A stretch of 42,043 nt of DNA from Bacteroidaceae bacterium. Its GTDB lineage: Bacteria > Bacteroidota > Bacteroidia > Bacteroidales > Bacteroidaceae. Location of the stretch: contig JAFUHF010000061.1 of NCBI GenBank assembly GCA_017468985.1, positions 1 through 42,043 on the forward strand. Direction: 5' to 3'. Below are positions 3,194 through 13,843 of this stretch, one piece after another. A model generated the notes under the pieces. The model had not been told where the DNA came from and did no database searches. It saw only the letters and a list, made by a program, of their open reading frames with translations. The stretch's first letter is position 1, and the number at the start of each line of letters is the position of its first letter. A program made the translations under genes and the position numbers.

Positions 3194-4183
3194 ATGAAAT
3201 CAGTCAGAATGCTATTGCCCCTGTTGGCCATGCTGTATGGATGCAGCACTACGCACAGAGTGAGTAACCCTGCGGAAATGAGCGGAAACCCCTTGTTCCC
3301 AGGCTGGTATGCCGACCCTGAGGGCGCCGTGTTTGAGAAACAATACTGGATATATCCCACCTCGTCGCGACCCTTCAAGGAACAGACCTACATGGATGCC
3401 TTTTCGTCACCCGACCTGGTGCACTGGACCAAGCATCCGCGCGTATTGACACAAGATAGCATCAGCTGGCTCCAGCTCGCCCTTTGGGCACCCTCTGTGG
3501 TGCATGCACGGGGAAAGTACTACTTCTTTTTCGGGGCTAACGACCTGCCCCACTACGGCGAGGTGGGTGGCATCGGTGTGGCGGTGAGCGACCGGCCTGA
3601 AGGCCCCTTCAGCGACGCTTTGGGCAAGCCGCTGATAGGCGAGATCGTAAACGGTGCCCAGCCCATCGATCAGTTTGTTTTTCGTGACGACGACGGCTCA
3701 TATTACATGTACTACGGCGGATGGCGTCATTGTAATATCGTAAAGCTCGCCTCTGACCTGCTGAGTCTGGTGCCCTTTGAGGACGGGACCTTATATAAAG
3801 AAGTAACGCCCGAAAACTATGTAGAAGGCCCCTTCATGTTGAAGCGTAAGGGAAAGTATTACTTTATGTGGTCAGAAGGCGGCTGGACGGGCCCCGATTA
3901 TTGCGTGGCGTACGCCATCAGCGACAGTCCGTTTGGCCCGTTTAAGCGTATCGGAAAAATTTTGGAACAGGATCCGGCCGTGGCCACGGGCGCCGGCCAT
4001 CATTCCGTCATTAAAGGCCCCGGCAAGGACAATTACTACATCATCTATCACCGACGTCCGCTCACCGAGACCAGCGGCCACAGCCGCGAAACGTGCATTG
4101 AGCACTTGAAGTTCGACAAGAACGGCTACATCCTCCCCGTGAAACTCACCAAGGAAGGCGTGGCCGCCTGTCCGCTGAAGTAG
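3194..4183 (+). CDS. Glycoside hydrolase family 43 lipoprotein
   Basis: Predicted surface or periplasmic five-bladed beta-propeller glycosidase acting on arabinose- or xylose-containing glycans. The N-terminus is a lipoprotein signal with lipobox LYGC (C17). The three GH43 acids fit well: catalytic base D41 in GWYADPEG, pKa modulator D159 in PIDQF, and general acid E211 in YVEGPF. Blade repeats end in aromatic motifs such as KYYFFFG, SYYMYYGG and KYYFMWSEGG. The 329-residue length is that of a single catalytic domain with no carbohydrate-binding module. It stands alone, with a PF07944 (GH127-like) arabinofuranosidase candidate elsewhere in the window. The exact subfamily and substrate cannot be read from the sequence. 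Confidence 0.88.
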   Translation: MKSVRMLLPLLAMLYGCSTTHRVSNPAEMSGNPLFPGWYADPEGAVFEKQYWIYPTSSRPFKEQTYMDAFSSPDLVHWTKHPRVLTQDSISWLQLALWAPSVVHARGKYYFFFGANDLPHYGEVGGIGVAVSDRPEGPFSDALGKPLIGEIVNGAQPIDQFVFRDDDGSYYMYYGGWRHCNIVKLASDLLSLVPFEDGTLYKEVTPENYVEGPFMLKRKGKYYFMWSEGGWTGPDYCVAYAISDSPFGPFKRIGKILEQDPAVATGAGHHSVIKGPGKDNYYIIYHRRPLTETSGHSRETCIEHLKFDKNGYILPVKLTKEGVAACPLK

Positions 4184-4277
4184 CAGAAGGTTCTTAATTA
4201 TCCGTAATTATTATTCTTCAATGCGTTGACTAAGAGGAAGGTTATTATTGTTTACCTATGTCGTTTCGGGTAACTTG

Positions 4278-4308
4278 TTGTATAAGCGACGAAATTTGTT
4301 TATCTTTG
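4278..4308 (+). promoter_or_regulatory. Bacteroidetes promoter of the ACGX peptide operon
   Basis: TTG at 4278-4280, a 20-nt spacer, then TATCTTTG at 4301-4308. This is a full match to the phylum's -33/-7 consensus. Transcription would start near 4315, about 40 nt before the peptide start codon. Confidence 0.75.
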
Positions 4309-4354
4309 CCGTTAAAAATAGTAATTCTGTATTCACATAATAAATAGTAGGAAA

Positions 4355-4570
4355 ATGAAAAGAGTAGACTTTGGCTTTCAGTACACGGCTCAGAACATAC
4401 TGAAGCAGTCAGCTGCAGCAAGTGCTGCATGCGGAAGTGCCTGTGGAGCAGCAGACAAACCTGCAGAAGAAAAGCCCTCAGCATGCGGAAGTGCCTGTGG
4501 AGCAGCAGACAAACCTGCAGAAGAAAAGCCCTCAGCATGTGGAAGTGCGTGTGGCGCAGGTGACAAATAA
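4355..4570 (+). CDS. ACGX-repeat peptide, substrate of the adjacent radical SAM enzyme
   Basis: A 71-residue precursor peptide. Residues 1-24 form a cysteine-free leader (MKRVDFGFQYTAQNILKQ, then an Ala/Ser stretch). Residues 25-71 are a core of three units of ACGSACGA, separated by ADKPAEEKPS linkers, with period 18. The six cysteines (26, 30, 44, 48, 62, 66) alternate 4 and 14 residues apart. There is no hydrophobic signal sequence. This matches what I recall of the family described as target peptides of the ACGX radical SAM system. The radical SAM gene starts 18 nt downstream. The expected modification falls on or beside the ACGX motifs, but its chemistry and the mature role are unknown. 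It could alternatively be a metal-binding thiol peptide. Confidence 0.9.
   Translation: MKRVDFGFQYTAQNILKQSAAASAACGSACGAADKPAEEKPSACGSACGAADKPAEEKPSACGSACGAGDK
4427..4567 (+). repeat. 54-bp in-gene tandem repeat encoding the ACGX core
   Basis: Units 4427-4480 and 4481-4534 are identical over all 54 bases. The third, partial unit (4535-4567) encodes the same ACGSACGA but uses different codons (TGT for TGC, GCG for GCC, GGC for GGA). The first two therefore look like a recent duplication, while the third is older and protein-conserved. Confidence 0.95.
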
Positions 4571-4588
4571 GTTCCGCAGTCCATTTTG

Positions 4589-5620
4589 ATGGATTTCTTT
4601 GCATTTCAGTGGCATATCACTGACGAATGCGATCAGCGTTGTAAGCACTGTTACATTTTTTCGGAAGGACATCCGCGATTGATAGAGATGTCATGGGAAA
4701 GGATGATGGCAGTGCTTACAAACATAGAGTATATGTGCAAGCGTATGCAACGCTTACCATATTTATATATCACCGGAGGAGACCCTATTCTTCACCCACG
4801 CTTCTGGAACTTACTGGAAGAGGTCGGCAGACGGCGCATTCCCTTTACCATCATGGGGAATCCCTTTCACCTTACCGTCAAGGTGGGGCAACGATTGAAA
4901 TCACTTGGATGTCGTAAATATCAGTTGAGTTTAGACGGACTGAGGCAAACGCATGATGCCTTCAGGAAGGAGGGTTCTTTTGAAAGTACGCTGAGGGCTA
5001 TATCCATCCTGCATCAGGCAGGACTGCATGTAGCCGTGATGACCACGGTATCGCAAGCTAACATTGATGAAATAAAGGAACTGATAGACGTGGTGGTAGA
5101 AAACGAGGTGGATATCTTTGCCTTTAGCCGGTATTGTCCAACCAGTGAGGATAAGGCTATGAAGTCTGATTGGCATATTTCGCCCCTTCGTTACAGAAGA
5201 CTGCTTGATGACTGCTGGAAAAAATACCAACAATATAAAGACAGTAATACCGTCTTTAATCTCAAGGATCATCTGTGGACGCTATATCTGTATGAAGAAG
5301 GACTCTTCAAGATTCCTGAAGGTCTGCGCGACGATGTTGTATATAATGGTTGTAATTGCGGCAATTGTCATTTTACGATTACAGCCGATGGGCGTTTGAT
5401 GGCGTGCAGGCGTTTTGAAAGCTACGTGGGCGACGTAAGCGAGGACATGTACGATGTTTTCCACGGAAAGCGTATGGAGAACTACCGGAGACATGAAGCT
5501 TTCGATAAGTGTAAACGATGCGAACTGCTGCGCTTTTGCAGAGGATGCCCTGCCGTAGCCTATGGCTATACACACCGTTTCTATGCTCCTGATCCGCAGT
5601 GCTGGAAAGAAGTAGAATAA
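4589..5620 (+). CDS. Radical SAM/SPASM enzyme of the ACGX system
   Basis: A 343-residue peptide-modifying radical SAM enzyme. The SAM-binding [4Fe-4S] motif is C14-x3-C18-x2-C21. It is followed by a TIM-barrel segment with the SAM-contacting YITGGDP and YQLSLDG. The C-terminal SPASM region would hold auxiliary clusters, with cysteines at 255, 257, 260, 273, 308, 311, 317, 320 and 338, including a CKRC-x5-CRGC pattern. SPASM enzymes typically form thioether, C-C or related crosslinks on ribosomal peptides. No separate RiPP recognition domain is obvious. The ATG at 4589 is preferred over the TTG directly before it. Placement right after the ACGX peptide gene defines the likely substrate. The actual reaction cannot be told from sequence. 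Confidence 0.92.
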   Translation: MDFFAFQWHITDECDQRCKHCYIFSEGHPRLIEMSWERMMAVLTNIEYMCKRMQRLPYLYITGGDPILHPRFWNLLEEVGRRRIPFTIMGNPFHLTVKVGQRLKSLGCRKYQLSLDGLRQTHDAFRKEGSFESTLRAISILHQAGLHVAVMTTVSQANIDEIKELIDVVVENEVDIFAFSRYCPTSEDKAMKSDWHISPLRYRRLLDDCWKKYQQYKDSNTVFNLKDHLWTLYLYEEGLFKIPEGLRDDVVYNGCNCGNCHFTITADGRLMACRRFESYVGDVSEDMYDVFHGKRMENYRRHEAFDKCKRCELLRFCRGCPAVAYGYTHRFYAPDPQCWKEVE

Positions 5621-5654
5621 AACAAACAGAATAATCATACGATTTAAAAATCCG

Positions 5655-6269
5655 ATGGATGTAGAGACTTGTATCAAAAAGTTAGGGTATGTAGGTGTGC
5701 TAACATTTTCCACGGTGGACGAAGAGGGACATCCTCAGGTGCGCAGCATCAGTGCAATCCATTATGAGCCCGATGCCATATATTTTTTTACGGCCAGAGG
5801 AAAGAATTTCTGTCGTCAACTGCATGCCGATGGTCATGTGCAGATACATGCTCTTACCAAATTCAAAGAAATGATAAGGCTTTCGTCTATAGCCCGTCCC
5901 GTAAGCGACGGGGAACAAGAAAAGTGGCGCGACGTGATTTTTTCAGAACAGCCGTATCTAAGCAACGTTTATCCTGGAGATACACGTTCCATAGGAATCA
6001 TCTTCAAGATCAGTAATGCTCAGATAGAGTATTTCAATTTGGGCTCATGGCCCATAGAAAGAAAATACTTTTCGTGGGGTATGGCAGAGCAGGAGAAGAA
6101 GGGCTACCAGATCACAACAGAGTGTATAGCATGTGGCACATGTGCATCGGTTTGTCCGCAGAATGCCATTACGGAAGGTGACCCATACATGATCAATCCC
6201 TCTCACTGCCTGCATTGTGGAAATTGTTATGAGCATTGTCCTGCCGATGCCATTGAGCGAATAGGCTGA
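5655..6269 (+). CDS. FMN-binding split-barrel protein fused to a two-cluster ferredoxin domain
   Basis: A 204-residue cytoplasmic redox protein. Residues 1 to about 140 resemble the pyridoxamine 5'-phosphate oxidase-like split barrel, which normally binds FMN (VGVLTFSTVDEEGHPQVRSI, then FFTARGKNF). Residues 157-195 hold two classical [4Fe-4S] motifs: C157-x2-C160-x2-C163-x3-C167-P and C185-x2-C188-x2-C191-x3-C195-P. It lies 34 nt after the radical SAM gene in the same operon. Inference: flavin plus two clusters could deliver single electrons to the radical SAM enzyme or its auxiliary clusters. Alternatively it may act in general oxidoreduction with the downstream reductase. Confidence 0.85.
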   Translation: MDVETCIKKLGYVGVLTFSTVDEEGHPQVRSISAIHYEPDAIYFFTARGKNFCRQLHADGHVQIHALTKFKEMIRLSSIARPVSDGEQEKWRDVIFSEQPYLSNVYPGDTRSIGIIFKISNAQIEYFNLGSWPIERKYFSWGMAEQEKKGYQITTECIACGTCASVCPQNAITEGDPYMINPSHCLHCGNCYEHCPADAIERIG

Positions 6270-6301
6270 CCTATGGAATAATCACAAAAACATCATGGCA
6301 T

Positions 6302-7264
6302 ATGAAAGCAGTGCTTATATCGAAAAGCTGTAGGGCTGATGAGCTGACCGTTAGTGAAATTCCGATACCCGAAGTGAAATCCGGATGGGTATTGGTGAGA
6401 GTACGGGCGGCTGGACTGAACCATTCTGAAGCCCTTCTGCGTGGTCGTGAAATAGAGGAGGATTATATTCATAAGCCCATAGTTCCTGGAATAGAATGTG
6501 TGGGAGAAGTTGCCGATCCGTCGGATACCTCATTCAGGATAGGAGAAAGGGTGGTATGTCTGATGGGAGGCATGGGACGTTCTTTTAATGGAAGTTATGC
6601 AGAGTATGCACTGCTTCCTCAGCACAATGTGTTCAAGGTGACGATACCGTTGGATTGGGTTTCACTTGCAGCAGTGCCAGAAACCTATTTTACCGCATAT
6701 GGTTCTCTGAAGGAATGTCTATTGTTATGCAATGATGATGTGCTCCTCGTCAGAGGGGCCACAAGTACGGTGGGGCAGGCGGCAATACAACTTGGAAAGG
6801 CCATGGGAGCAACGGTTGTAGCTGCATGTAGGCGTGAAACGTCTTTCCCTCTCCTTAAATCCATTGGAGCCGATGCATGCGTGATTGACGATGGGGCCAT
6901 CAGCAAAAGAGAACTGCCCTACAAGCCCAATAAGGTGCTTGAGCTCATCGGGCCAAAGACTTTGCAGGATAGTCTGAACGCTGTTGTGGGACGGCCTGGC
7001 TACGTGTGTTGTACCGGCGTGCTGGGCAATGTTTTTTATGTTTCTCATTTCGAGCCCATTCGTTACATCCCAAATGGGGTGTTTCTCTCCAGCTTTTACA
7101 GCAACTATCCTACTCAGGAGGTAATGGATGAGATATTTGCACTCATGCATCTTCATCAGCTTCGACCGCTGTATACCAAGGTTTTTCCCCTTGACCACAT
7201 AGCCGATGCGCACACGTTGCTTGACCAAGGTGGTGCAGGAGGAAAGATTGTGCTGACGATGTAG
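6302..7264 (+). CDS. Zinc-independent quinone oxidoreductase-like protein (MDR superfamily)
   Basis: A 320-residue NADPH-dependent oxidoreductase-like protein. The GroES-like catalytic domain is N-terminal (RVRAAGLNHSEALLRGR, then VPGIECVGEV). The Rossmann nucleotide domain has VRGATSTVGQAAIQLGKAMGATV. Where zinc alcohol dehydrogenases have a zinc ligand cysteine, this protein has NHSE, and the structural-zinc cysteine loop is absent, so it belongs with quinone oxidoreductase-like enzymes. It lies 32 nt after the ferredoxin-type gene and 42 nt before an HxlR regulator. Such reductases often act on quinones or reactive carbonyl compounds. Whether it modifies the ACGX peptide or simply shares its regulation is unknown. 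Confidence 0.85.
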   Translation: MKAVLISKSCRADELTVSEIPIPEVKSGWVLVRVRAAGLNHSEALLRGREIEEDYIHKPIVPGIECVGEVADPSDTSFRIGERVVCLMGGMGRSFNGSYAEYALLPQHNVFKVTIPLDWVSLAAVPETYFTAYGSLKECLLLCNDDVLLVRGATSTVGQAAIQLGKAMGATVVAACRRETSFPLLKSIGADACVIDDGAISKRELPYKPNKVLELIGPKTLQDSLNAVVGRPGYVCCTGVLGNVFYVSHFEPIRYIPNGVFLSSFYSNYPTQEVMDEIFALMHLHQLRPLYTKVFPLDHIADAHTLLDQGGAGGKIVLTM

Positions 7265-7306
7265 AAAGTTGTTATATAATAGGAAAATGATTAATGCGTA
7301 ACGTTT

Positions 7307-7672
7307 ATGGTTATTAGTCAGATAGTAGATCCCTTTTTTCCTGAATGTCCAATAAGAAACATTCTGGCTCGTGTGCTTGACAAATGGTCGTTTTTGCTTC
7401 TTATGGTGCTTGACGGATATGAGCAGCGAAGATTCAATCAGTTATTAAAAGACATTCCCGATATCTCTCGCCGTATGCTTACGCAAACCCTTCGCCAACT
7501 CGAAGCCGATGGATTGGTCGAGCGTCAGGTGTTTGCAGAAGTTCCTCTTCGTGTTGAATATCGTCTTACGCCAATTGCCCGTACGCTTACTCCCCTGCTA
7601 AAGCCTCTGACTTCATGGGCTCTGACTAATTATGCTGCAATAATGGAGAACCGCAGGAAGTATCTTCAGTAG
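7307..7672 (+). CDS. HxlR-family winged-helix regulator
   Basis: A 121-residue DNA-binding protein of the HxlR family. It shows the family signature CPIRNILARVLDKWSFLLLMVL near the N-terminus, a recognition helix around ISRRMLTQTLRQLEADGLV, and the wing with VEYRLTPIA. C14 sits at the conserved cysteine position, which in relatives such as YodB and HypR senses quinones, aldehydes or disulfide stress. It is the last gene of the operon, directly before a terminator, so autoregulation is plausible. A Cys-dependent signal fits the neighbouring quinone oxidoreductase, but that link is inference. Confidence 0.88.
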   Translation: MVISQIVDPFFPECPIRNILARVLDKWSFLLLMVLDGYEQRRFNQLLKDIPDISRRMLTQTLRQLEADGLVERQVFAEVPLRVEYRLTPIARTLTPLLKPLTSWALTNYAAIMENRRKYLQ

Positions 7673-7688
7673 CATCGGCTGCGAAAGC

Positions 7689-7722
7689 ATCCTTCCATGA
7701 AGGATATGGGTGTTTTTTCTTT
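7689..7722 (+). terminator. Rho-independent terminator of the ACGX operon
   Basis: A perfect 7-bp stem ATCCTTC/GAAGGAT with a 3-nt loop (7689-7705) is followed within 8 nt by a T-rich run (TTTTTTCTTT). It separates the five-gene operon from ftsK. Confidence 0.75.
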
Positions 7723-7753
7723 GCAATGCCTGTTTCCTCTTGAGATTATTTGC

Positions 7754-7782: not shown

Positions 7783-10263
7783 ATGCCAAGAAAGAAAGGA
7801 AGGGAGTCGGCGGTGAAGAAACAGAAACTGCCGGCTGCCAAAACAACGAAAGAAAGCAGGATTAAAAATGCACTGAACGTATTGGGACTGAAGGACGGCA
7901 TGCGTGCAGAGACCATTACCTTCTTAGTGGGGTTGGTGATACTGCTCGTAGCAGTGTTTATGATCCTTTCCTTCACGTCGTATGTGCTGACCGGTTCGGC
8001 CGACCAGAGCATGCTGGAGGCCTTGGCCGCAGGCAAGGATTTCGCCGGCGACACGGAGGTCAACAATATGGGAGGCTATCTTGGCGCCAAGCTGGCCTAC
8101 TTCTTTATGGACGGATGTTTTGGTATCGCTTCATTTTTTATCCCCCTGTTTCTCATTTTTGTAGCCATGAGGCTGATGGGCACCTATAAAGTGAAGCTGT
8201 GGCGCAAGTTCGTCAACTACGCCTTTCTGATGATATGGCTTTCGGTGGCACTCACATTCCTGCTTCCCGATGCCATTTTGCAATATTTTGCCTTTCCTCC
8301 CGGAGGTGCGCATGGGCGTAACATTTGTCGCTACATCACCGAGAAGGTGGGCACGCCAGGTCTCTTTATCCTGATATTGGCGTCGGCTATTTTCTATCTG
8401 ATTTATCTGAGTCACCGCACGATTCTTATTATTCGCAAGTTGTTGCGGCCCAAGGATCTGTTCCAGAAGAAAAACCTCAAGGCTCCTGAGCCCTCTGAGC
8501 CTGAGGACAAGCCGGAGGAGCCGCAGGAGGCACCCACGTATCGCGAGGAAAAACCTATAGAAATAGACCTGACGGAGACGGAGGGACAGGAGGAAATCGT
8601 TGTGTCCGGACCCGAAAAGAAGCAGTCCAAGGAAAAACCCGTTGAACAGAAAGACGACGACGGGGCGGCTATGTTCATCGTGGAAAAGGCGGAAGAAGAA
8701 ACCAAAGCCGACCAGAAAACCCTTAACGATCCCTACGACCCCAAGTTGGACCTGGAGTTCTATAAGTATCCGCTGCTCAGTCTGCTCAAGAAGTATGATG
8801 ACCAGAATACTTCCATTGACATGGCGGAGCAAACGGAGAATAAAAATCGGATTACCACCGTGCTGCACAACTTCGGCGTAGAGATTTCCAGCATTAAGGC
8901 CACCGTGGGCCCCACCATCACGCTTTACGAAATCACGCCTGCGGCCGGAGTGCGCATTTCCAAGATTAAGAACCTGGAGGATGACATTGCCCTGAGCTTA
9001 AGCGCGCTGGGCATCCGTATCATAGCGCCCATTCCCGGAAAGGGTACGATAGGAATTGAAGTGCCCAACAAGAAACCCCAGATTGTCTCCATTGAGAGCA
9101 TCATAAACAGCAAGAAATTTCAGGAAAGCGAGTTTGAGCTCCCCATCGCGCTCGGAAAAACCATTACCAACGAGGTCTACATGTTAGACCTTGCCAAGGC
9201 GCCTCACCTGCTCGTGGCCGGTGCTACGGGTCAAGGTAAGTCGGTAGGCCTTAACGCCATCATCACCTCGCTGCTCTACAAGAAACATCCGTCGGAGCTC
9301 AAGATGGTGCTGGTAGATCCCAAGAAGGTGGAGTTCAGCATTTATTCGCCCTTGGCCAACCACTTCCTCGCAAAGGTGCCCGACGAGGACAGCGACCCAA
9401 TTATCACCGACGTTACCAAGGTGGTAAAGACGCTCAAGAGCCTTTGCAAGGAGATGGACGACCGCTATTTGTTGCTCAAAAAGGCTGCGTGCCGCAACAT
9501 CAAGGAGTATAATGCGAAATTCAAGGCTCGCCAGCTCAATCCGGAACATGGCCACCGCTTCCTGCCTTATTTCGTCATCATCATCGACGAGTTTGGCGAC
9601 CTCATCATGACGGCCGGCAAGGAAGTAGAGCTGCCCATTGCGCGCATAGCGCAATTGGCGCGCGCCGTGGGCATGCACATGGTGATTGCTACGCAGCGCC
9701 CCACCACGAATATCATTACCGGTACCATTAAAGCCAACTTCCCTGCACGCATGGCCTTCAAGGTGACTTCCATGATAGATTCGCGCACCATCCTTGACCA
9801 GAGTGGAGCCAATCAACTGGTGGGTAAGGGCGACATGCTCATACTGGCAGGCACCACCTTGCCCATACGCGTGCAGTGCGCCTTCATTGATACTCCTGAA
9901 GTGCAGCAAATCAATCAGTACATCAGTGAGCAGCAGGGTTACTTAGCTCCTTACGAATTACCCGAAGTGATTGACGAGGCTGCCGATGGCGGAAGCTCGC
10001 GGAGTGGTTTGGACGACGGCGAACGTCTTGACCCCTTGTTCGAAGAGGCTGCCCGACTTATAGTGGTCCACCAGTCAGGGTCCACCTCGTTGATACAGCG
10101 CAAGTTTGCTATAGGCTATAACCGCGCTGGCAGACTGATGGACCAGTTGGAGCGCATGGGAATTGTAGGTCCCATTAATGGTGCCAAGCCCCGTGACGTG
10201 CTTTGTGCAGATGAATCTATGCTGCAAGCAAAGCTCGACAGCTTTCAGTTAGAAAATGAATAA
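7783..10263 (+). CDS. ftsK: DNA translocase FtsK/SpoIIIE family
   Basis: An 826-residue septal DNA pump that moves chromosome ends and dimers during division. Four membrane segments lie in the first 210 residues, among them FLVGLVILLVAVFMIL and GLFILILASAIFYLIYL. An acidic, proline-rich linker follows (about 225-310). The motor domain carries Walker A GATGQGKS (480-487) and Walker B VIIIDEFGDL. A C-terminal gamma winged helix (after DDGERLDPLFEEAARLIV) would read orienting DNA motifs. I start at the ATG encoding MPRKKGRES; an upstream TTG would fall inside the -7 promoter box. The LolA-like and trxB genes follow in the same direction, an order I associate with Bacteroidales. Confidence 0.96.
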   Translation: MPRKKGRESAVKKQKLPAAKTTKESRIKNALNVLGLKDGMRAETITFLVGLVILLVAVFMILSFTSYVLTGSADQSMLEALAAGKDFAGDTEVNNMGGYLGAKLAYFFMDGCFGIASFFIPLFLIFVAMRLMGTYKVKLWRKFVNYAFLMIWLSVALTFLLPDAILQYFAFPPGGAHGRNICRYITEKVGTPGLFILILASAIFYLIYLSHRTILIIRKLLRPKDLFQKKNLKAPEPSEPEDKPEEPQEAPTYREEKPIEIDLTETEGQEEIVVSGPEKKQSKEKPVEQKDDDGAAMFIVEKAEEETKADQKTLNDPYDPKLDLEFYKYPLLSLLKKYDDQNTSIDMAEQTENKNRITTVLHNFGVEISSIKATVGPTITLYEITPAAGVRISKIKNLEDDIALSLSALGIRIIAPIPGKGTIGIEVPNKKPQIVSIESIINSKKFQESEFELPIALGKTITNEVYMLDLAKAPHLLVAGATGQGKSVGLNAIITSLLYKKHPSELKMVLVDPKKVEFSIYSPLANHFLAKVPDEDSDPIITDVTKVVKTLKSLCKEMDDRYLLLKKAACRNIKEYNAKFKARQLNPEHGHRFLPYFVIIIDEFGDLIMTAGKEVELPIARIAQLARAVGMHMVIATQRPTTNIITGTIKANFPARMAFKVTSMIDSRTILDQSGANQLVGKGDMLILAGTTLPIRVQCAFIDTPEVQQINQYISEQQGYLAPYELPEVIDEAADGGSSRSGLDDGERLDPLFEEAARLIVVHQSGSTSLIQRKFAIGYNRAGRLMDQLERMGIVGPINGAKPRDVLCADESMLQAKLDSFQLENE

Positions 10264-10275
10264 AGAATCATAATC

Positions 10276-10917
10276 ATGACAGCTAAATTATTGTTAAGCA
10301 TGATGCTGGTCTGTTGTTGTATCATAGCTCCGGCCAAGACGGACAAGCAAGCTAAAGCTATTTTGGACAAAACGGCGAATACCGTAAAAAAAGCCGGTGA
10401 CTTCGAAGCCCAGTTTACGGCTACGAGTTTCAAGGGTACACTTGAGCAGGCCCGTATGAATGGCGTCATTTACGTTCACGGAACGGCCTACCAGATGGAG
10501 TCCGAGAATATGGTGTATTGGTACGACGGCAATACGCTTTGGAACTACGTAAAGGCGAACAATGAAGTAAACATCAGTCTTCCTCCCTTCTACGAGCAGC
10601 AGGCCATGAATCCTTATACCTTCATTAGCCTTTATCGAAAGGGCTATGAATACGACTACGGCGAGAGCGAACTGCGTGGTAAGGCTTGTTACTGCATTCA
10701 CCTGCGCTGTGTGGAAAAGACGCAGAAGATTCGTGAGATGTACCTCGACATTGACAAGAGCACCATGCTCCCTCTGTGTATTCGTTTCCGCCGCGGTGCC
10801 GACGGATGGACGCGTATCAGCGTTCGCGACTATAAAACCAATCAGAAATATCCAGATTCCAAGTTTACCTTTAACAAGGAAGACTATCCCACGGCTGAAA
10901 TCATTGACCTCAGATAG
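10276..10917 (+). CDS. LolA-like outer-membrane lipoprotein carrier protein
   Basis: A 213-residue periplasmic protein. A signal peptide covers about residues 1-20 (LLLSMMLVCCCIIAPAKT). The rest resembles the LolA/LolB half-barrel, with the FEAQFTATSFKGTLEQ strand, then GVIYVHGTAYQMES and VYWYDGNTLWNYV, which correspond to LolA's early strands. It would carry lipoproteins from the inner to the outer membrane. It follows ftsK by 12 nt and is probably co-transcribed with it, as in E. coli, where lolA is also next to ftsK. Sequence identity to proteobacterial LolA is low, so the fold assignment rests on motif order and neighbours. Confidence 0.85.
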   Translation: MTAKLLLSMMLVCCCIIAPAKTDKQAKAILDKTANTVKKAGDFEAQFTATSFKGTLEQARMNGVIYVHGTAYQMESENMVYWYDGNTLWNYVKANNEVNISLPPFYEQQAMNPYTFISLYRKGYEYDYGESELRGKACYCIHLRCVEKTQKIREMYLDIDKSTMLPLCIRFRRGADGWTRISVRDYKTNQKYPDSKFTFNKEDYPTAEIIDLR

Positions 10918-10977
10918 TTCCTGCTACGGGTAAATTTCCCTTTCCTCAATTCTTACAACCCTTATTCAGATTTATTT

Positions 10978-11910
10978 ATGGAAAAGCTAAAGAGCGTTAT
11001 TCTCGGTTCAGGGCCTGCCGGCTATACGGCAGCCATCTACATTGGCCGTGCAGGGTTCAAGCCCGTGATTTATGAGGGGCTTCAGCCCGGAGGCCAGCTT
11101 ACCACCACCACTATTGTGGAAAACTTCCCGGGTTTCCCCGAGGGCATTGATGCCAATGAGCTGATGGAAGCCATGCGCAAGCAGGCTGAAACCTTTGGTG
11201 CAGAGATTCGTCCCCATATTGCCGTAAAGGCCGATCTTTCGGTAGCGCCTTACCGTCTTACGTTCGACGACGGATCAGAGGTGGAGACACAGAGCGTGGT
11301 GATTGCCACGGGGGCTACGGCTAAATACCTGGGTCTGCCCGATGAGGAGAAGTATAAGGGCGAGGGAGTGAGTGCCTGCGCCACGTGCGACGGATTTTTC
11401 TATCGCAAAAAGGTGGTAGCCGTGGTGGGCGGCGGCGATACGGCCTGCGAAGAGGCGGAATATCTCTCTACGCTGGCCAATAAGGTGTATCTCATTGTGC
11501 GCAAGCCCTTCCTCCGTGCATCAGAGATCATGCAGGCTCGGGTGAAGCAAAATCCCAAGATTGAAATCCTCTTTGAAACCAATACGCTTGGCCTCTTTGG
11601 CGAGAATGGTGTAGAAGGCGTGAGGTTGGTTTACCGCAAGGGCGAAACCGATGAACGTCGCTACGAGCTTGCCATCGACGGCTTCTTTCTCGCCATTGGC
11701 CATCAGCCCAATAGTGCCATTTTCAAGCCCTGGGTGAAGACGGACGAAACGGGCTATATCATTACCGAGGGCCACACGCCGCGCACAGGCGTACCCGGCG
11801 TGTTTGCAGCAGGCGATGTGGCTGACCCCAACTATCGTCAGGCCATTACGGCTGCGGCTTCCGGATGTCAGGCCGGCATAGAGGTGAGCCACTATCTGCA
11901 AAACCTATAG
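10978..11910 (+). CDS. trxB: Thioredoxin-disulfide reductase
   Basis: A 310-residue cytoplasmic flavoenzyme that reduces thioredoxin with NADPH. Visible motifs are the FAD-binding GSGPAG (10-15), the redox-active CATC (C134, C137) inside SACATCDGFFY, the NADPH-binding GGGDTA, and the C-terminal GVFAAGDVAD for FAD. Length is typical for low-molecular-weight bacterial TrxB. It lies 60 bp after the LolA-like gene and 29 bp before the SGNH hydrolase gene. Function is secure. Confidence 0.97.
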   Translation: MEKLKSVILGSGPAGYTAAIYIGRAGFKPVIYEGLQPGGQLTTTTIVENFPGFPEGIDANELMEAMRKQAETFGAEIRPHIAVKADLSVAPYRLTFDDGSEVETQSVVIATGATAKYLGLPDEEKYKGEGVSACATCDGFFYRKKVVAVVGGGDTACEEAEYLSTLANKVYLIVRKPFLRASEIMQARVKQNPKIEILFETNTLGLFGENGVEGVRLVYRKGETDERRYELAIDGFFLAIGHQPNSAIFKPWVKTDETGYIITEGHTPRTGVPGVFAAGDVADPNYRQAITAAASGCQAGIEVSHYLQNL

Positions 11911-11939
11911 TCAGCAACAGTTCCTTACTTTCACAAGCG

Positions 11940-12770
11940 ATGAAAATCAGATGTTCCCTTTTTCTTTTGCTATTACTCTGTGCACCATTTGCTTCGGCTG
12001 AAGAGCATAGCAGCGACAACATGAATCCCATTGCTACGATCAGCCATGATCCCGGTTTTTGTTCCATTTTTCACCATTGGGGCTTTATTGGCGATTCTTT
12101 GTGCAGTGGAGAGTTGGAGTCTAACTATACGAACGGCGAAAAGCGCAAGGGCTGGAACGACATGTACGAATATTCCTGGGGCCAGCGCATGTGTGCCCAG
12201 ATGGGGGTAGAGGGTGAAAACTATTCTCAGGGCGGCGAAACTACCCACGGATGGATAGAGCATTTCTGGAACAATCCTCAAAACCGCAATAGTAATATTG
12301 ATGCCAAGGCTCGTCCCAAGCAGGCCTACATTATGGCCCTCGGAGAGAACGATGAGCACCAGAAGTTTGCCATTGGCAATACGGCCACTGATATTAACAA
12401 GGAGGACTTTACCCAGAATGCCAATACCTATGCCGGATGCTACGCCGGCATCATACAGCGCGTGAAGAGCATACAGCCCGATGCCGTGATCTTTGTGGTC
12501 ACCATGCCTAAGGGTAGTGATCCTTACAATAAGGTGATCCGGCAAATGCCTGAACTCTTTCCCAATGTTTACCTGATTGACCTGGAAAAGCATGCCCCCA
12601 ACTATTGGGGTAAGGATTTCAGGAAGCGTTACTTCCTTGGCGGCCACATGAATGCTGCCGGTTACCAGTGGACAGCCTATATGTTCCTGACTTACATCAA
12701 CTGGATCATAGAGCAGCATTGGCAGGACTTTGTGCAGGCCGGATTCATAGGTACTCCCCATAAGTTTTAA
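11940..12770 (+). CDS. Secreted SGNH/GDSL-family hydrolase
   Basis: A 276-residue exported protein. A signal peptide runs to about residue 20 (LFLLLLLCAPFASA). Family blocks are visible: block I GFIGDSLCSG with nucleophile S53, a block II-like glycine (G98/G99), block III GEND (135-138) and block V with H236 in GGHMNAAGY. The usual DxxH aspartate is replaced by leucine (L233), so the catalytic Asp may be elsewhere or missing. Substrate is probably an ester on a glycan or lipid. I chose the ATG giving a clean signal peptide. Its stop overlaps the next gene's start as TAATG, indicating translational coupling. Confidence 0.8.
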   Translation: MKIRCSLFLLLLLCAPFASAEEHSSDNMNPIATISHDPGFCSIFHHWGFIGDSLCSGELESNYTNGEKRKGWNDMYEYSWGQRMCAQMGVEGENYSQGGETTHGWIEHFWNNPQNRNSNIDAKARPKQAYIMALGENDEHQKFAIGNTATDINKEDFTQNANTYAGCYAGIIQRVKSIQPDAVIFVVTMPKGSDPYNKVIRQMPELFPNVYLIDLEKHAPNYWGKDFRKRYFLGGHMNAAGYQWTAYMFLTYINWIIEQHWQDFVQAGFIGTPHKF

Positions 12771-13843
12771 TGACTTTTCGCCCGTATGGTCGCACGTGGA
12801 GGCGGCTCGTAGACCTTTTGTGCTGCTCATGGCTCTGTTGTCATGCCGTGGCGCAGGAAAAGTCGTTTGTCATAGCCGAACTCAATGCTGAGAATCTCTT
12901 TGATTGCGCTCACGATGAGGGGTATAACGACCATGACTTCCTGCCCGACAGTGGGCGCCGCTGGCATCAAGGCCGTCTTTGGCATAAGTTGCAGCATCTG
13001 AGTAAGGAAATCATGTCGCTCAATGGCCTTTTGCCGCCCGACCTTGTGGCTCTTACCGAGGTGGAAAACGATTCCGTGCTGCATGGACTCACGCGCCGTG
13101 CCATATTGCGCCGGGCAGGCTATCACTACGTGATGACCCACAGTCACGACGAGCGCGGACTCGACGTGGCCTTGCTCTATCAGCCCCTGACCTTCAGGGT
13201 GATTGGCCACGAAAGCATCACGCCCCACCTGAACGGCACTCCCATCCTGACGCGCGACATCCTGCACATTGTGGGGTGCGTAGTGACGGGCGATACGCTC
13301 CATGTGTACGTATGTCACTTTTCGAGCAAGATAGGTGGACGCAAGGCGCAGCGCTATCGCATGGCCGAGGCCAGGACCTTATGGAACTCTGTAAACGACG
13401 TGCTACGCCATGGAAGGGAGGCTAAGATCGTGATAGTGGGTGACTTCAACGATGCTCCTTCGTCAAAGGCCCTCACCGTTGGGCTGAAAGTGCAGATGGC
13501 GGCCGAGGCAGGGAGCTACCTGCCCCAGAGGCTCTACAATCTCTCGCAAAGTTTACCATCAGACTCCATACGCGGCACATATAAGTATGACGGCCGTTGG
13601 GAACTGCTGGACCAATGCATCGTTTCGGGTAGTTTGCTGAGTGAGGAAGAGGCGTTTTCGGTCATTCCGGGGAGCTTTCGCGTATGTTCGCCATCCTTCT
13701 TGCTGGAAAGGGATGATGAAGGCCTTGGTCTTAAGCCCCGACGCACTTATAATGGCTTTCGTTACAATGGAGGCTTCAGTGACCATCTGCCCATTCTGGT
13801 GAAGTTCAGTCAGCGTTTCTCTTCACCCTCCACTGGCCGTTGA
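12770..13843 (+). CDS. Secreted endonuclease/exonuclease/phosphatase-family protein
   Basis: A 357-residue metal-dependent hydrolase of the DNase I-like superfamily, apparently exported (hydrophobic, Cys-rich segment LVDLLCCSWLCCHAVAQ at about 13-29). The conserved residues are present: N39 in AELNAENLF, metal ligand E97 in LTEVEN, the VCHFSS histidine, the VGDFNDAP pair and the terminal GGFSDHLPILV histidine. Substrate may be DNA, a phosphodiester or a phospholipid; an export signal favours an extracytoplasmic nuclease or phosphatase. The start ATG overlaps the stop of the SGNH hydrolase gene. It converges on rlmH. Confidence 0.85.
   Translation: MTFRPYGRTWRRLVDLLCCSWLCCHAVAQEKSFVIAELNAENLFDCAHDEGYNDHDFLPDSGRRWHQGRLWHKLQHLSKEIMSLNGLLPPDLVALTEVENDSVLHGLTRRAILRRAGYHYVMTHSHDERGLDVALLYQPLTFRVIGHESITPHLNGTPILTRDILHIVGCVVTGDTLHVYVCHFSSKIGGRKAQRYRMAEARTLWNSVNDVLRHGREAKIVIVGDFNDAPSSKALTVGLKVQMAAEAGSYLPQRLYNLSQSLPSDSIRGTYKYDGRWELLDQCIVSGSLLSEEEAFSVIPGSFRVCSPSFLLERDDEGLGLKPRRTYNGFRYNGGFSDHLPILVKFSQRFSSPSTGR

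Follow-up and report, generated by a model that had tools for sequence, protein, structure and literature searches.

The stretch of DNA analysed here (the window, 42,043 nt; contig JAFUHF010000061.1 of the Bacteroidaceae bacterium assembly GCA_017468985.1) carries an operon of the ACGX type, in which acgA, the gene of a cysteine-rich precursor peptide, is followed by acgM, which encodes a radical S-adenosylmethionine (SAM) enzyme with a SPASM domain, and by genes for two redox proteins and a regulator of the HxlR family. It truly belongs to the ACGX family and sits in a cassette that recurs, is mobile and looks stress-related. Its features, in window coordinates, are as follows:

4252 to 4273, unstranded: inverted repeat TTACC-N12-GGTAA, 5′ of the promoter, a candidate regulator site
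4278 to 4308, + strand: Bacteroidetes-type promoter, TTG-N20-TATCTTTG (−33/−7), an exact match to the pattern TTG-N20-TAnnTTTG
4311 to 4325, unstranded: GTTAA-N5-GTAAT directly 3′ of the −7 element, read by eye
4355 to 4570, + strand: AcgA precursor peptide, 71 aa (TIGR04341, 51.5 bits)
4589 to 5620, + strand: AcgM radical SAM/SPASM enzyme, 343 aa from ATG (TIGR04340, 546.2 bits)
5655 to 6269, + strand: flavin mononucleotide (FMN) split-barrel fused to a 2[4Fe-4S] ferredoxin, 204 aa (Pfam PNPOx_N, Fer4), below the FMN/Fe-S protein
6302 to 7264, + strand: NAD(P)H quinone-reductase-like protein of the medium-chain dehydrogenase/reductase (MDR) type, 320 aa (Pfam ADH_N, ADH_zinc_N)
7307 to 7672, + strand: HxlR/DUF24 regulator with an N-terminal Cys14, 121 aa (PF01638, 89.9 bits)
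7673 to 7730, + strand: weak hairpin followed by a T run, a possible terminator (fold z = −2.03)

An earlier reading of this DNA, made from the sequence alone (the sequence-only reading), had described a promoter followed by a peptide, a radical SAM/SPASM enzyme, an FMN-barrel/2[4Fe-4S] protein, a zinc-less quinone reductase and an HxlR regulator at gaps of 18-42 nt, and the open reading frames (ORFs), the pattern match and the Pfam and NCBIfam searches confirm the promoter, the five genes and their order, with intergenic gaps of 18, 34, 32 and 42 nt from 5′ to 3′. AcgM, which scores above the Pfam cut-offs for Radical_SAM and SPASM, begins at a TTG (4586) in the program's ORF list, and its ATG start lies at 4589. 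The promoter pattern, presumably the Bacteroidetes −33/−7 motif, has five matches on the two strands of the window against 0.49 expected from shuffling. The inverted repeat upstream is one of four exact 5-base inverted repeats in the 260 upstream bases, and its spacing differs from that of the palindromes found in relatives (see below). The same reading had closed the operon with a terminator; the hairpin and the T run are there, but the structure is weaker than had been stated, since 8 of 200 shuffles fold equally well and it is not among the hairpins listed by a hairpin scan of the window.

Both the peptide and the enzyme score above the cut-offs of the NCBIfam ACGX models (28 bits for TIGR04341 and 400 bits for TIGR04340), and they are adjacent with the peptide first, acgA ending 18 nt 5′ of acgM, as in the acgM/acgA system of NCBIfam, to which the window adds the FMN/Fe-S, MDR and HxlR genes. 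The profile search thus upholds the assignment to ACGX made earlier. The sequence-only reading had also regarded the chemistry and function of the family as unresolved, which agrees with the lack of any paper on it in the open-licence literature searched (titles only), and the names of the NCBIfam models give no product or role. AcgA has six cysteines, every one of them within ACG[SA], and its gene contains two 54-nt repeats (4427-4534) that are 100% identical.

For comparison, we assembled 90 acgM loci, made up of the best 80 of 234 stretches encoding a relative and 10 more from a search of the family; two pairs of them have an identical enzyme sequence. A peptide with at least two ACG motifs is encoded on the acgM strand in 84 of the 90, and in every one of the 44 long-flank loci, which extend for 1.5 kb or more upstream and 3 kb or more downstream (by record title, 26 from Bacteroidota, 15 from Clostridia and other Bacillota and 3 from Bacilli). 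Among the six loci without a peptide, four (L038, L050, L091 and L092) begin at or near a contig end, and another (L062) starts with panB, a gene that in L047 sits between the peptide and the enzyme. The exact order peptide, radical SAM enzyme, FMN/Fe-S protein, MDR protein, HxlR recurs in 4 of the 90 (L042, L052, L067 and L071), so that the checks named in the sequence-only reading, namely matches to the two models, a peptide beside related enzymes and recurrence of the downstream genes, all came out in its favour.

In 76 distinct precursors, 468 of the 480 cysteines are followed by glycine, and alanine precedes 451 of these 468 Cys-Gly sites. The precursors are built as a leader plus a core, with a repeat number that varies among loci; the leaders are lineage-specific (MKR... 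in most Bacteroidota, MALSN... in many Clostridia) and the repeats are constant. Beyond residue 25, they consist of A, G, C, K, P, E, S, D and T, with traces of other residues, aromatics included, and no hydrophobic signal sequence was seen by eye in the precursors of the window or of its relatives. In the peptide encoded beside the archaeal acgM of Methanosphaera sp. ISO3-F5, six of the seven Cys-Gly units are ACG and the charged spacers are not kept, which suggests that Ala-Cys-Gly may be the unit under selection.

The three radical SAM cysteines, and eight more in the SPASM region, are conserved without exception in 88 AcgM sequences. For each of nine AcgM proteins scored singly, the second-best NCBIfam family is SbtM (TIGR04082), whose model is matched by 38 of 38 AcgM members and which is the nearest characterised NCBIfam family; SbtM acts on Cys or selenocysteine (Sec) residues of the precursor of a ribosomally synthesised and post-translationally modified peptide (RiPP). 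According to a review that cites the work on SbtM, the enzyme strips a Cys or Sec peptide of four hydrogens, the Cys product being a thiooxazole (PMC11002830). Two further papers describe 5-thiooxazoles as easily alkylated and such peptides as forming under metal and oxidative stress (PMC12668002), and oxazolin precursors as repeating a Cys-Gly unit, EGKCG (PMC12452194). On the strength of the kinship with SbtM and of these thiooxazole and Cys-Gly parallels, we propose an oxygen-independent route to the same product, in which AcgM would convert the Cys of ACG to a thiooxazole, a proposal to which we give slightly less than an even chance. The near absence of aromatic residues past residue 25 argues against cyclophane chemistry.

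A rather unlikely alternative is that AcgM forms thioether crosslinks of the sactipeptide or ranthipeptide type, from the Cys sulfur to a nearby residue carbon, which would leave small rings and no free thiols. SPASM enzymes that act on Cys-rich peptides often make thioethers; the best matches of AcgM among the four Protein Data Bank (PDB) entries listed are SkfB (47.7 bits) and the radical SAM enzyme 5v1q (37.5 bits), and the NCBIfam matches of the window AcgM include the ranthipeptide maturase PapB (74.9 bits). However, SbtM exceeds PapB by about 120 bits, PapB passes 1e-20 in 2 of 38 members, and the near-constant part of the peptide is Ala-Cys-Gly, with Ala, Ser or Thr at the +2 position of 465 of the 468 Cys-Gly sites, a weak set of acceptors.

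The neighbourhood of acgM was counted in two ways. In the loose count, which covered −4 to +6.5 kb of acgM on either strand and relied on BLAST clusters (named from one to three representatives each, the other members being joined by BLAST), the 90 loci contained HxlR in 70 cases, MDR in 44, nitroreductase in 39, FMN/Fe-S in 29, SirTM in 24, Zn-macrodomain in 13 and ABM-type monooxygenase in 11. The strict count took reductases and FMN/Fe-S proteins on the acgM strand from −1.5 to +3.5 kb, SirTM and macrodomain on the acgM strand from −3 to +6.5 kb, and HxlR on either strand from −2.5 to +3.5 kb, and gave HxlR 69, MDR 43, nitroreductase 34, FMN/Fe-S 27, SirTM 22 and macrodomain 11; where the two counts differ, we rely on the strict one. 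The sequence-only reading had called the three downstream genes of the window unusual accessory genes, which is only partly apt, as they are companions that recur. In clusters of at least four loci, most of them named by eye, no metal exporter, metalloregulator or metal chaperone was recognised, nor any peptide exporter, processing protease or immunity gene; a Na+/solute symporter-like cluster occurs in four loci.

These clusters bear on a second alternative, also doubtful, that the product acts above all as a buffer of soft metals (Cu, Zn, Hg and the like), the anaerobic counterpart of bufferins and captophorins, with the stress genes answering metal-induced thiol stress. Two papers (PMC12668002, PMC12452194) describe copper binding by thiooxazole peptides made by iron-dependent oxidases of the multinuclear non-haem type (MNIO), and the occurrence of these peptides under metal and oxidative stress; the ACGX peptides offer 4 to 8 Cys-Gly units each and 207 neighbouring pairs at CxxxC spacing. 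Against a metal buffer stand the absence of recognised metal genes from the clusters and, unlike in bufferins, of an evident signal peptide.

The best PDB chain for the MDR protein of the window is 4dup, a quinone oxidoreductase (its quinone_pig3 score, 154.9 bits, is below the cut-off of 296.8), and a same-strand MDR or nitroreductase gene is present in 41 of the 44 long-flank loci. The sequence-only reading had considered a redox-driven maturation, which we spell out as the FMN/2[4Fe-4S] protein and the quinone reductase supplying AcgM with electrons or oxidising the peptide further. The genes do share an operon in the window, a radical SAM enzyme could plausibly receive its electrons from a flavin-ferredoxin protein, and a relative of the FMN/Fe-S protein lies on the acgM strand in 27 of the 90 loci and, with 44.7% identity, adjoins the archaeal acgM. 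Nonetheless, a same-strand FMN/Fe-S gene is found near acgM in 17 of the 44 long-flank loci and is missing from 27, and on an AcgM tree (quick method; 46 rows, the 44 long-flank loci, the window and the Roseburia plasmid locus L200) the fewest changes required are 15 for FMN/Fe-S, 8 for nitroreductase, 8 for SirTM, 7 for MDR and 5 for HxlR, or 15, 9, 8, 7 and 5 in the same order with the looser counts. Since these genes come and go, or give way to a non-homologous enzyme, beside near-identical maturases (for example L100 and L106), they are unlikely to be maturation partners; neither the FMN/Fe-S protein nor the reductase looks required, and we give redox-driven maturation little credence. What the encoded proteins have in common is plausibly that they reduce quinones, nitro compounds and electrophiles of this sort, to which such regulators also respond as sensors. 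In the Bacilli locus L119, a nitroreductase near acgM (10198-11088) is fused to a 4Fe-4S dicluster ferredoxin (Pfam on L119), with a similar protein in L114 (12885-13775, Bacilli), a fusion that parallels the FMN-barrel/ferredoxin protein of the window.

An HxlR gene lies within 3.3 kb of acgM in 70 of the 90 loci and occurs in 37 of the 44 with long flanks. Such genes are scarce, a search of 12 genomes at 1e-10 giving between 0 and 5 in each; yet of the 9 genomes among them that bear acgM, 8 (all but G400) have a copy no more than about 2.5 kb from it, and in three of these the acgM-adjacent copy is the only one found. The window regulator combines an HxlR domain with an N-terminal cysteine, Cys14, a column that is kept in 67 of 71 HxlR sequences. 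Its closest solved relative is YybR (chain 4a5m), which we take to be HypR, and Cys14 is aligned between the two. Cys14 of HypR is termed redox-sensing in PMC6943732.

Of 54 Bacteroidota regions 5′ of the peptide gene, 15 contain GTNAC-N9-GTNAC, where shuffled sequences gave a mean of 0.11 and at most 2. The version with the shorter spacer, GTNAC-N6-GTNAC, is found in 11 of the 23 upstream regions from other groups (shuffles: mean 0.05, at most 2). In 13 of the 15, the palindrome lies 49-59 bases 5′ of the start codon, right after the −7 element; it is operator-like, and a regulator bound there could block transcription. The window's GTTAA-N5-GTAAT is possibly a decayed operator, as relatives often have GTNAC-N9-GTNAC at this place. 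The recurrent HxlR gene, the palindrome in relatives and the quinone and nitro reductases strengthen the suggestion of the sequence-only reading that a thiol-rich product is made in response to electrophile stress, and the operon is probably an HxlR-controlled thiol/electrophile-stress cassette.

At the window site, the cassette measures about 3.6 kb and is absent from the same site in G017, the congener with the most similar ftsK N-terminus, where the equivalent of window positions 3194-4183 (78% identical) ends 9 nt before ftsK; this reflects either a gain in the window's genome (G000) or a loss in G017. The G+C content in 1-kb windows is 45-48% in the cassette, 54-59% upstream and mostly 51-55% downstream, with one value of 47%. 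AcgM above the cut-off, the FMN/Fe-S protein and the MDR protein are each found in one of the 19 genomes of the genus, the window's own, and AcgM is found in 11 of the 399 genomes of the family. The acgM neighbourhood is found again across Bacteroidota and Bacillota, and also in a spirochaete and on an archaeal plasmid.

At 1e-30, plasmid matches came from 4 of 72,556 records, two of them versions of one. The plasmid of Roseburia sp. 831b, whose record itself uses the names acgA and acgM, carries HxlR, acgA (73.8 bits against TIGR04341, a pass), acgM, nitroreductase, FMN/Fe-S, Zn-macrodomain and SirTM genes, and a Subdoligranulum plasmid has the same set. Methanosphaera sp. ISO3-F5 has the FMN/Fe-S gene, an HxlR-like gene (25% identity to the window), the repeat peptide, acgM (annotated as two ORFs) and an MDR gene (48.8%); on its plasmid pNP174 (L199), the cassette at 11281-13016 lies about 3 kb from brxL and pglZ of a BREX system. 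Carriage by phages was considered and rejected, with no match among 50,697 phage records at 1e-20 and two loci in viral contigs. The contig of L198 (IMGVR_UViG_3300028886_000026), catalogued as viral and, at 504279 bases, large enough for a jumbo phage, encodes at 4941-6026 an AcgM-like radical SAM/SPASM protein, 49% identical to that of the window; no ACG peptide or known accessory gene was found in the 11 kb around it, and four ORFs close by, 109-141 aa long, have GL or GM as their last residues and might be its targets. A RiPP that is secreted as an antibiotic or a signal, its redox neighbours being incidental, would fit the leader-plus-core precursor of variable repeat number and the patchy, mobile distribution (1 of 19 and 11 of 399 genomes), but is most improbable given that the clusters of at least four loci held no recognised exporter, processing protease or immunity gene and that no hydrophobic signal sequence was seen by eye.

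Our best explanation for the whole, which we hold tentatively, is an electrophile/thiol-stress cassette that makes a thiooxazole thiol peptide. HxlR would sense quinones, disulfide stress and similar electrophiles through its N-terminal cysteine and switch the promoter 5′ of acgA, as suggested by the Cys present in the window and the operator-like palindrome in relatives. AcgM would recognise the AcgA leader and, with its radical SAM and SPASM clusters, oxidise each ACG cysteine by four electrons; by homology with SbtM and from the motif, the carbonyl oxygen of the preceding Ala would close onto the Cys β-carbon to yield a 5-thiooxazole thiol, up to six per peptide. As there is no evident signal peptide, exporter or protease partner, the product is probably cytosolic, where it could trap soft metal ions or electrophiles. 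The same toxicants would be reduced by the FMN/2[4Fe-4S] protein and by the quinone reductase or nitroreductase. Such trapping of electrophiles or metals may be the main role of the product, though we would stop just short of calling it an even bet. The AcgM system would then be an oxygen-independent counterpart of the MNIO thiooxazole peptides. In summary, the link to stress is fairly well supported, and the chemistry and the trapping are what we infer.

Several observations weigh against this explanation. AcgM scores 196.2 bits against SbtM, below the cut-off of 350, and aligns to positions 198-504 of the 516 of the SbtM profile, so that about the first 197 are absent; its substrate is a multi-repeat Cys peptide, and a search for SbtM proteins above the cut-off for a tree returned 0 in five genomes and 0 of 249. 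Given the missed cut-off and the missing N-terminal part, AcgM is not itself an SbtM, and we claim only that it would work like one. The locus L095 has acgM and both redox genes and no same-strand ACG peptide in its 10.7 kb, and the archaeal peptide was rejected as a TIGR04341 member (12.9 bits), so that its assignment rests on motif and place. As for the regulator, four Bacilli proteins have Asp at the N-terminal Cys column, and the cysteine was rejected as a special mark of ACGX, being present in 12 of the 16 HxlR proteins not encoded beside acgM (two of the 16 show a gap there). The GTNAC motif was picked after reading the sequences, and its canonical form was not found in the upstream region of the window. 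HxlR genes frequently accompany reductases, and the peptide could therefore be a passenger in a generic regulon.

A further link concerns ADP-ribosylation. A SirTM gene lies near acgM on the same strand in 22 of the 90 loci (24 on either strand) and in 18 of the 44 with long flanks. The best PDB chain for the SirTM of L098 is 5a3a (221.9 bits), which we take to be a SirTM, and the Zn-macrodomain protein of L107 matches NF003163 (375.3 bits). Both occur with acgM in Bacteroidota, Clostridia and Bacilli, and SirTM alone in a Treponemataceae contig that ends there. A DUF1848 protein is encoded 3′ of SirTM in L100 (11904-12863), L106 (11256-12215; its sequence ends with a CxxxCxxC motif) and L200 (9998-10939), and the DUF1848 BLAST cluster spans 5 of the 90 loci, some of them away from SirTM. 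As an obligatory partner, SirTM was rejected: in the family, 21 of 399 genomes have SirTM and 11 of 399 have acgM, and the two coincide only in G323, on different contigs. No match to SirTM was found in the window's genome (78.65% complete), and the operon of the window does not count among the extended SirTM operons.

In the extended operon, as portrayed in two papers (PMC11490716, PMC4518038), SirTM modifies lipoyl-GcvH-L, with two oxidoreductases alongside, and the targets of other SirTM/Zn-Macro systems are termed elusive. The acgM loci with SirTM resemble this operon in their oxidoreductases and in a small thiol-peptide candidate, and differ in that GcvH and LplA are not recurrent and AcgA occupies the place of GcvH-L. 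Neither GcvH nor LplA is among the 25 of 90 families listed with at least two matches among 90 unlabelled neighbours, a check in which single matches could be hidden and whose alignment omitted 12 of 102 ORFs. Of 11 genomes with both acgM and SirTM, 4 gave no match to GCV_H, although these assemblies may be incomplete, and AcgA is therefore a candidate SirTM target; the single coincidence of SirTM and acgM among the 399 genomes of the family, and the lack of a SirTM match in the window's genome, count against it. We raise, as a long shot, the idea that ACGX is an inducible, ribosomally made thiol of anaerobes, a cytosolic thiooxazole buffer of electrophiles and soft metals, formed without oxygen, that takes the place held by lipoyl-GcvH-L in the SirTM operon of staphylococci, and that the peptide, and not GcvH-L, is reversibly ADP-ribosylated where the operon ends in SirTM and the Zn-macrodomain protein.

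Among known systems, the MNIO captophorins, bufferins and oxazolins share with ACGX the making of peptides under stress, the repeated Cys-Gly unit of oxazolin and the thiooxazole, reported there and proposed here. They differ in their iron-dependent oxidase, their signal peptides and, for oxazolins, a distribution mostly in Pseudomonadota, where ACGX uses a radical SAM enzyme and is probably cytosolic; MNIO is absent from the listed family matches of the window's five proteins, which sets the locus apart from captophorin and bufferin systems. The HypR and YodB (HxlR/DUF24) regulons likewise place an HxlR protein with an N-terminal Cys beside quinone reductase or nitroreductase genes, whereas in ACGX the gene set extends to a radical SAM enzyme with its peptide.

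The ACGX family is already named, and the functional frame is the new part. It turns comparative anatomy into a testable claim, that gut and rumen anaerobes make stress-induced Cys-thiooxazole peptides without oxygen, for which a named isolate, Roseburia sp. 831b, with a SirTM-type operon on a plasmid, provides a starting point at the bench. AcgA offers a candidate SirTM target beyond GcvH-L, and its ADP-ribosylation, if true, would supply a target for the SirTM/Zn-Macro pairs that lack GcvH-L. If the proposed chemistry holds, radical SAM and MNIO enzymes, whose chemistries are unrelated, would converge on the same Cys-Gly repeat product.

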